NCBI GenBank assembly: GCA_027068975.1 | Contig: JALXFN010000002.1 | Location: forward strand, 1 to 33,710 | DNA from: Campylobacteraceae bacterium | GTDB taxonomy: Bacteria > Campylobacterota > Campylobacteria > Campylobacterales > Sulfurovaceae | DNA length: 33,710 bases | Direction of reading: 5' to 3' | Shown: positions 6,613 to 29,542 of the stretch, in pieces | Layout: each line of letters starts with the position of its first letter | Numbering within the stretch: position 1 is the first letter of the stretch | Notes under the pieces: model-generated | The model's database searches: none | What the model saw: only the letters and a program-made list of their open reading frames with translations | Told to the model about the DNA's origin: nothing | Position numbers and translations under genes: made by a program

Positions 6613-7272
6613 ATGAAAAAAAATGACTACCACCACGGCAACCTCAAAGAGGAATTTTTAAAAATAGCATTTGAGTTTATACATAAAGAAGATGTAGATA
6701 AACTGACCCTTAAAGTACTTTCTGATGCGACAGGAACATCGCGTTCTGCTATCTATAGGCACTTTAGCTCTAAAGATGCTTTAATGGAAGAGATAATACG
6801 CCAAGGCTTTGAAGAGTTCGACAGAGTGACTTCGCCTATGTTACGAGACCAAAAGACCCCTTTAGTTGATAGATTCTATAACACCTCTAAAGTTTATATA
6901 GAGTGGGCAAAAGAGAATCCGAACCTCTACAGGCTTCTTTTTGGGCGTAAATATGCTTATATTCGTGAAGAGATACTAAGTATTAAAGAGGAGACTTGTG
7001 ATGCTTTTGGTGCGTTAAAATGTACTGTAGAAGAGGGGCAAGAGAAAGGGATTTTAAAAAAAGATGATAGTCTAAAACAGAGTGTTATTATTTGGGCTTC
7101 ACTTCATGGCTTGGCTTCTCTTATTATAGATGGCTTTATGGATGTGGCAGAGCTAAGTGATGAACTGGTTGATGATATGTTTCAAAGTTTATTAGCAGGG
7201 TGCATAAGTAATAAGGTGAAGATAATCTCTACCATTCCATTTGTTAAGGGGTTGTTGGAGCCAAAGGGTTAA
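6613..7272 (+). CDS. TetR/AcrR-family transcriptional regulator
   Basis: A 219-residue one-component repressor. The N-terminus YHHGNLKEEFLKIAFEFI is the usual first helix of TetR proteins, followed by the helix-turn-helix in VLSDATGTSRSAIYRHFSSKD (about residues 36-57). The C-terminal ligand domain includes YIEWAKENPNLYRLLFGRK, seen in the TetR_C WHG-type group. It is divergent from the LolA-like/RND pair and most likely controls it and itself through the 19-bp palindromes at 6539-6588. No ribosome-binding site is visible and the -10 box abuts the start, so the message may be leaderless. The last 29 bases overlap the 3' end of cbiA on the other strand. Confidence 0.88.
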   Translation: MKKNDYHHGNLKEEFLKIAFEFIHKEDVDKLTLKVLSDATGTSRSAIYRHFSSKDALMEEIIRQGFEEFDRVTSPMLRDQKTPLVDRFYNTSKVYIEWAKENPNLYRLLFGRKYAYIREEILSIKEETCDAFGALKCTVEEGQEKGILKKDDSLKQSVIIWASLHGLASLIIDGFMDVAELSDELVDDMFQSLLAGCISNKVKIISTIPFVKGLLEPKG

Positions 7273-8515
7273 GGCTACCCCTAAACATCCCATGCAAATA
7301 CGTCCCAAAAACCTCACCTTTAGCCCATGAACCAACAACTCCTTTACCCTTAGGCATTTTAGAAAGCACATCAAACCCCTTTGCTAAACTCTGCTCTGTT
7401 GGCTTGGTGTAGTGAAAGGCATGACCTTTAACCCCTTGTTCGTTGTAGTAGTAGCCCAAACGGTTAAAGCGTTTGTCAAGGGTAAACTCTATATCTAAAA
7501 TAGCACTCATCTTTTTTTCATCAACACTATTAGAGAGGTACAAAAGCCCTGCACACTCTGCATAGATGGCTTTTGTTTTGGCGTGTTCGATGAGTGAGTT
7601 TTTGAAGTTCTCAGAGTTTTTATGTCGCTCATAAGCCTCTTCTGTCTCTACGTAACCTCCACAGAGGTAGACCATGTCGCAGTTGCTAGGTATGACCTCA
7701 TCTTTGGTGGAGTCTACGATGACCACTTCAGCATAAAGTTTTTTTAAAAAGTTTAGATTGTCGTGGTAGAGAAAAGAGAAGTTTTCGTCGTTGACTATGG
7801 CTAGTTTTTGCTCTCTTTTTTTTATGGGTGGGAATGGGTAGGGTGATTGTGTGTTATTTTGACGGTGCGATGGCAATCGCACCCTACGGAGCTTTTCTAG
7901 GTCTATGTGTTCTAGTACCTCTTTGCTTATCTGCTCTATTTTAGACAAATCTTTAAGGTCTAAGCCCAAATGGGTGTCGCTTAGGGCAGGGAGTTTTTTT
8001 TGAATCCACCCTAAAACTTCTATGTTTTTATGGTCAGCCTCTATCTGATTTTTTATAAGTGCGTAGTGCATTTTAGAGGAGAGATTGTTGATGACCACAG
8101 CTTTTATGGTATTGTCAGCCTTATACTCCAATAAGCCTTTAAGCACAGCCGAAATAGTAATGTAACTTCCACCCCCATCAAGCACTAAAATAGTAGGAAC
8201 ATTTAGAAGTTTACTTACAGAGTAGGCAGAGCAACCCTTATTGTCTCCATCGTAAAAGCCCATTACCCCTTCTAAAATGGCTACCTCTTTGTCAGCATAG
8301 TTAGCATATAGCCACTCTACTTGCTCCTTGCTCATAATAAAACTGTCCAAGTTTACTGAATCTGTCCCACATACCTGTTTATGAAACTGTGGGTCAATAA
8401 AATCTGGACCTATTTTAAAGGGACGTACCGACTCTCTAAAGTGCCATAAAAGAGCTGTTGTTAGTATGGTCTTACCTTGATTTGAAGCTGTGGCTGAGAT
8501 GCAGAGGTTTAGCAT
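7244..8515 (-). CDS. cbiA: cobyrinic acid a,c-diamide synthase (CbiA)
   Basis: Amidates the a and c side chains of (hydrogeno)cobyrinic acid using glutamine and ATP. The 423-residue protein has the N-terminal ATP domain (SATASNQGKT at about 7-16, KIGPDFIDPQFH, LEGVMGFYDG) and a C-terminal amidotransferase domain with the cysteine in IYAECAGLLYL and the histidine in GTYLHGMF. The linker between the domains contains an unusual stretch, RRVRLPSHRQNNTQSPYPFP, encoded by a palindromic repeat at 7838-7887 that keeps the frame open. It is the last gene of the minus-strand cbi operon and starts directly after the cbiH stop codon (TAAATG). Confidence 0.94.
   Translation of the reverse strand: MLNLCISATASNQGKTILTTALLWHFRESVRPFKIGPDFIDPQFHKQVCGTDSVNLDSFIMSKEQVEWLYANYADKEVAILEGVMGFYDGDNKGCSAYSVSKLLNVPTILVLDGGGSYITISAVLKGLLEYKADNTIKAVVINNLSSKMHYALIKNQIEADHKNIEVLGWIQKKLPALSDTHLGLDLKDLSKIEQISKEVLEHIDLEKLRRVRLPSHRQNNTQSPYPFPPIKKREQKLAIVNDENFSFLYHDNLNFLKKLYAEVVIVDSTKDEVIPSNCDMVYLCGGYVETEEAYERHKNSENFKNSLIEHAKTKAIYAECAGLLYLSNSVDEKKMSAILDIEFTLDKRFNRLGYYYNEQGVKGHAFHYTKPTEQSLAKGFDVLSKMPKGKGVVGSWAKGEVFGTYLHGMFRGSLNPLAPTTP
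7838..7887. repeat. palindromic MITE-like element inside cbiA
   Basis: The ends GTAGGGTG (7838-7845) and CACCCTAC (7880-7887) are perfect inverted repeats; read inward from both ends, they extend as GTAGGGTG(CG)ATTG with a two-base gap. Inside lies a second perfect hairpin, GGTGCGAT-GGCA-ATCGCACC (7864-7883). The element is G+C-richer than the gene around it and encodes an Arg/Pro/Ser/Gln-rich linker in the CbiA frame. The layout resembles dispersed intergenic palindromic repeats that have inserted in frame, as known for the Rickettsia palindromic elements. No second copy was found in this window. Confidence 0.65.
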
Positions 8516-29491: not shown

Positions 29492-29542
29492 GGAATCGGA
29501 GACTTTAGTCCCGAACAAGACGAGGCTAAAGCCATCGGTTCC
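29492..29542. repeat. imperfect palindromic intergenic repeat (REP/MITE-like)
   Basis: GGAATCGGAGACTTTAGTC (29492-29510) pairs with GGCTAAAGCCATCGGTTCC (29524-29542) at 14 of 19 positions, more with G-U pairs. The CTTTAG/CTAAAG core is exact. It is G+C-richer than its surroundings, and its end overlaps the first base of the phosphoesterase stop codon. It may act as a terminator or mRNA-stabilising hairpin between two gene pairs. Only one copy is seen in the window. Confidence 0.6.

Follow-up and report, generated by a model that had tools for sequence, protein, structure and literature searches.

An in-frame GTAG REP in cbiA of Sulfurovum-like Campylobacterota and the repeated filling of one interdomain linker by unrelated palindromic repeats

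How does a palindromic repeat come to lie in the reading frame of a cobalamin gene, and what has become of repeat and protein since? The question is raised by the cbiA gene in a 33,710-nucleotide stretch of DNA (the window) from contig C2 of G000, a 2.78-Mb Sulfurovum-like Campylobacterota genome in 146 contigs, whose named relatives are Campylobacteraceae and Sulfurovum MAGs. An earlier note, written from the sequence alone, had described a 50-bp palindromic unit with inverted ends and an inner perfect hairpin in this gene, and had compared it to the selfish palindromic elements of Rickettsia. The features that enter the argument are the following.

7244..8515, minus strand: cbiA, cobyrinate a,c-diamide synthase, 423 aa (NCBIfam NF002204, 298 bits, cut-off 254), with profile matches to Pfam AAA_26 at residues 67-172 and GATase_3 at residues 238-413.
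7864..7887, minus strand: GTAG-tagged REP core GTAGGGTGCGATTGCCATCGCACC, here REP A, an exact genomic repeat common to 7 cbiA orthologues; its codons in cbiA are CGT AGG GTG CGA TTG CCA TCG CAC (RRVRLPSH).
7884..7887, minus strand: the GTAG tetranucleotide, read from the sequence 5' of the hairpin.
7864..7883, minus strand: hairpin of a perfect 8-bp stem with a loop of 4 nt (folding energy as DNA -9.0 kcal/mol, z -5.1).
7851..7863, minus strand: REP tail of 13 nt, GTCAAAATAACAC in the window and GTCAAAACCAAAC in orthologues and other genomic REPs.
7838..7845, plus strand: the outer GTAGGGTG arm of the earlier note, which differs in orthologues and consists mostly of the native Pro-Tyr codons CCC TAC.

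The REP follows the ATPase part of CbiA (Pfam match to about residue 173) and precedes the amidotransferase domain GATase_3 (from residue 238), which agrees with the placement in the interdomain linker given by the earlier note. Together with its 13-nt tail it encodes linker residues 210-221. According to structure prediction the linker is coil, with a pLDDT of 71-76 compared to >90 in the domains. The expected open frame was likewise recovered, as the REP-bearing cbiA is uninterrupted in seven related genomes, and the residues encoded by the REP were not found in other Campylobacterota or in more distant CbiA proteins. Neither of the outcomes named beforehand as contrary to a mobile origin, i.e. 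no other copy in the genome or the same residues in distant CbiA, was thus encountered.

The proposed genome search was productive. The form GTAGGGTGCGATN{2,8}ATCGCACC occurs in 21 exact copies in G000 as compared to 0 in the reversed control, and allowing up to 3 mismatches gave 42 copies, again against 0. Eight distinct head-to-head pairs of 73-110 bp are found among them, while the remainder are single or otherwise arranged. The combination of a GTAG 5' of a short hairpin (8-bp stem, 4-nt loop) with dispersal as singlets and inverted dimers is that of a GTAG REP. A chance hairpin or an assembly artefact might be considered in a draft genome of many contigs; both are ruled out by the empty reversed-pattern controls and by the recurrence of the insertion in seven genomes, each assembled separately. 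Several apparent REP-containing reading frames, either short or with an extended start (L003, L005, L006, L011, L013 and L278), look spurious or wrongly started and were not counted as intragenic copies. A further copy of the REP encodes the C-terminal end of a 372-aa protein of unknown family on contig C3 (L002, 1477-2595, minus strand); around residue 58 this protein also carries, in frame, a second and larger palindromic repeat.

The extent of the cbiA insert differs from the 50-bp unit originally described. The inner perfect hairpin is confirmed, and an 8-bp outer inverted pair does exist in the window, but the inverted ends are not a property of the element: a pattern search of G000 for the 50-bp form (7838-7887) gave no further copy, and the full outer-arm match is confined to this genome. 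The core and the following CAAAACCAAAC recur in six orthologues from other genomes, whereas the outer arm of these reads TCAACCTAC, TCACCTTAC, TCAACATAC or TCACAATAT. Within the core, these orthologues deviate by a single base in G007 and by a 3-nt duplication in G021. The outer CCC TAC codons belong to a conserved Pro-Tyr-Pro-Phe motif. Conversely, the tail GTCAAAACCAAAC is also found downstream of the REP at other G000 sites, for example on C107 (L017), so that the tail was probably inserted with the REP; in the window it has since become GTCAAAATAACAC. Judged by these alignments, the real insert would be the 24-nt REP plus tail, a single REP. The outer arm matches by chance or, at most, is what remains of a degraded second REP of a pair. 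The latter reading, in which the 50-bp element was a head-to-head pair with GTAGGGTG inverted ends whose second REP is mostly lost, draws on the eight pairs in the same genome and on the end CAATC-ACCCTAC, which resembles the REP arm CAATCGCACCCTAC minus two bases. We consider it improbable, as the TAC is the native Tyr codon of YPFP and is present in REP-less relatives too, and the orthologues lack the second arm. The two inverted REPs that make up a REPIN are therefore not present in cbiA.

A candidate for the mobilising enzyme is encoded in the same genome. The RAYT gene on contig C137 (NCBIfam NF047646, REP_Tyr_transpos, 154 bits, cut-off 80) has inverted copies of the same REP close by on both sides and itself holds a third, in-frame copy read as VGCDCYLT (L026, about 1624-1651). 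The RAYT of G033 likewise carries an in-frame REP (VGCDCYHT), the RAYTs of G004 and G025 are shorter by six residues at this position, and the in-frame REP is missing from the closest other RAYTs beyond G000 and G033. Among these nearest relatives the flanking REPs change in step with the transposase: GTAGGGTG... accompanies the closer RAYT and GTAGGGGG... the other relatives. Elsewhere in the genus, RAYTs are accompanied by different GTAG hairpins. The GTAG tetranucleotide is the RAYT recognition tag of GTAG REPs, a role known from other REPtrons (PMC8266576), and the pairing of transposase and repeat suggests that REP A was moved by this RAYT. TnpAREP enzymes cut at CT (PMC8266576); in the 154 REP copies compared, CT immediately 5' of the repeat is not enriched (0.32 vs 0.34 background), and position -1 is a pyrimidine in 84%. 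A second RAYT in G000 (L217, C6) is flanked by a different GTAG REP, GTAGGGTGTAGACCCCGTCTACACC.

The tag and the associated RAYT also settle the relation to Rickettsia palindromic elements (RPEs). The idea of a selfish palindromic repeat that creates a protein segment stands, with respect to both the many copies and the RPE-like behaviour of inserting a palindrome in frame into functional genes. Membership in the RPE family does not, and is ruled out: RPE-4 and RPE-6 carry a CGTC tag and have no associated transposase (PMC3733652).

The CbiA search across 60 genomes placed REP A in cbiA of seven of them, all of one genus, with REP and tail at the identical place in the seven orthologues. Measured from VLEHID to PFP plus one residue, the linker stretch is mostly 27-30 residues long in other Campylobacterota and 31-33 with REP A. 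The REP-less relatives are only 2-3 residues shorter, rather than the 17-22 residues predicted in the earlier note. In view of this small gain the linker was replaced, or trimmed afterwards, and not simply lengthened. A clean empty site was not found, because linkers have diverged in the lineages that lack REP A.

Two relatives have different repeats in the same linker. In G001, at 83% identity, it is a different GTAG hairpin repeat on the opposite strand, GTAGGGACAACCCCCTGTGGTTGTCC (REP B). The seven genomes first searched contained nothing of REP B beyond its own copy, and one more was found across the genus, in G031, with the same loop and following bases; REP B is thus known from two copies only. 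In G020, whose CbiA is that of Sulfurovum sp. UBA1140 (L055), the linker stretch measures 39 residues and contains an unrelated, larger palindromic repeat, GACTTTAGTC...GGCTAAAGCC (repeat C), present in 7 copies in G020 and 40 in G029. One linker has been filled by unrelated repeats at least three times. The order of events is less clear, as G001 and G020 branch within the REP A clade in the protein tree (97/93) but outside it, with weak support, in nucleotide trees. In light of this disagreement REP A may have been replaced in G001 and G020 rather than never having been present. The 35-residue stretch of a Helicobacteraceae MAG (L071; linker at G060:C19:27183-27209) contains a 9-bp perfect palindrome, TTGGCACAT...ATGTGCCAA, which was rejected as a repeat since it is a single copy in its genome.

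These observations are best explained by a RAYT-mobilised GTAG REP that entered a tolerant cbiA linker once, in an ancestor, and is now shared by at least seven species; we put the probability of this reading at roughly 85%. The lineage's single-strand RAYT transposase would have carried the REP into the linker codons in the ancestor of at least seven Sulfurovum-like species, and the frame would have stayed open because only one of the six frames of the REP contains a stop. The insert was presumably tolerated since the linker between ATPase and glutaminase, roughly 16-20 residues long (28 in G020), seems to accept nearly every sequence. Such inserts are probably close to neutral for CbiA. Neighbouring linker would have been lost or trimmed around the same time, leaving a net gain of only 2-3 residues; which of insertion and trimming came first can only be suggested. 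The same tolerance may have admitted the different GTAG hairpin repeat of G001 and the unrelated, larger palindromic repeat of G020.

The five full-length cbiA orthologues show zero variable columns in the 24-nt core, and with the exception of starts 627 and 628, which represent the core, every 24-nt window of cbiA varies (mean 6.9 variable columns). None of the 8 third positions of the core is variable as compared to a mean of 4.45. The REP A clade as a whole shows 1 change in the core where about 15 would be expected (Poisson P about 4e-6). The core is hence the most conserved stretch of cbiA, silent sites included, while the adjoining tail has dropped to 65-96% identity in most pairs. Candidate causes are exchange among the copies, a hairpin function, or strong selection acting on each codon. 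One possibility, compatible with the ancestral insertion and held by us at clearly less than even odds, is that the cbiA REP is actively kept as DNA or RNA, either because other copies convert or re-invade it or through a role of the hairpin in gene or mRNA. The invariant third positions next to a diverging tail speak for such maintenance. On the other side, orthologous intergenic REPs look conserved as well, albeit in a biased sample picked by exact match, and the whole family may share this property. Furthermore, the loop base varies freely between C and T among genomic copies yet is always C in cbiA, unlike what frequent conversion would give. More doubtful still is the combined proposal that unrelated palindromic repeats land in this linker time and again and, at the same time, that its REP is preserved as DNA or RNA down to the silent sites, through exchange with the other REPs of the genome or by hairpin function. 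If this were true, a protein segment would be held constant by a mobile repeat and not by selection on the protein.

With respect to known systems, the preferred reading of a RAYT-mobilised GTAG REP in a tolerant linker follows what Di Nocera, De Gregorio and Rocco described in 2013 for GTAG REPs together with the associated RAYTs, dimers and in-frame copies within genes (PMC3733652). Sulfurovum NBC37-1 is on their list of GTAG-repeat hosts, linkers or loops were proposed as tolerant sites for in-frame copies, and recB of two Xanthomonas species carries different REPs at about the same site (PMC3733652). REP A shares with these repeats the GTAG tag, the short stem-loop, the head-to-head dimers, the REP-flanked RAYT and the in-frame copies. 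It differs in the host gene, in a core conserved at silent sites and in a RAYT gene with its own in-frame REP, and the linker differs in having received three unrelated families, one of them without a GTAG tag. The earlier note knew of no described example in cobalamin enzymes of this group. Our literature search found no report of cbiA as host of an intragenic GTAG REP, but intragenic GTAG REPs as such are already known, and what is unusual here is the convergence of three families and the silent-site conservation. REP pairs and a RAYT flanked by its own REPs are likewise features of REPINs and RAYTs (Bertels and Rainey 2011, PMC3116915; PMC8266576); the cbiA copy, a single REP with tail, and the lack of enrichment of the CT context expected for TnpAREP set the present case apart. 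Enterobacterial RU elements in genes are also small mobile repeats that add coding sequence (Delihas 2007, PMC2759123). Unlike REP A, they are larger, MITE-like units of 103-168 bp in other bacteria (PMC2759123). Across several species the cbiA linker provides a natural series of linker replacement by mobile DNA: native sequence in some, and in others REP A, REP B or the unrelated larger repeat, always in frame. REP homogenisation within a genome may be measured here as well, since the codons of the host gene allow the copy to be aligned between species independent of the repeat.

Repeat C (about 92 bp) behaves more like an RPE than REP A does. An intergenic copy of the second, larger palindromic repeat, GGAGACTTTAGTCCCGAA.....CGAGGCTAAAGCCATCG, lies in the window at 29498-29537 on the plus strand; 8 copies with up to 3 mismatches are present in G000, and the full unit in relatives is approximately 92 bp long with outer arms TAGACATCTTGCAAAACT / AGTTTTGCAAGATGTCTA. 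Ten of the 30 listed copies (a few being the same copy fetched twice) are in frame in ORFs of at least 120 aa. Such copies lie between the hydrolase and methyltransferase domains of one protein (L306, G000:C14), between the FAD and C-terminal domains of a fumarate reductase/succinate dehydrogenase-like protein (L295, G020:C5), between GntR and aminotransferase domains (L166, G007:C91), within a CoaBC-like DFP domain (L165, G014:C357), between UPF0227 and HD domains (L296, G020:C20), and inside an intein-like region of DnaE (L300, G020:C78). This larger repeat looks like a Campylobacterota counterpart of the RPEs.
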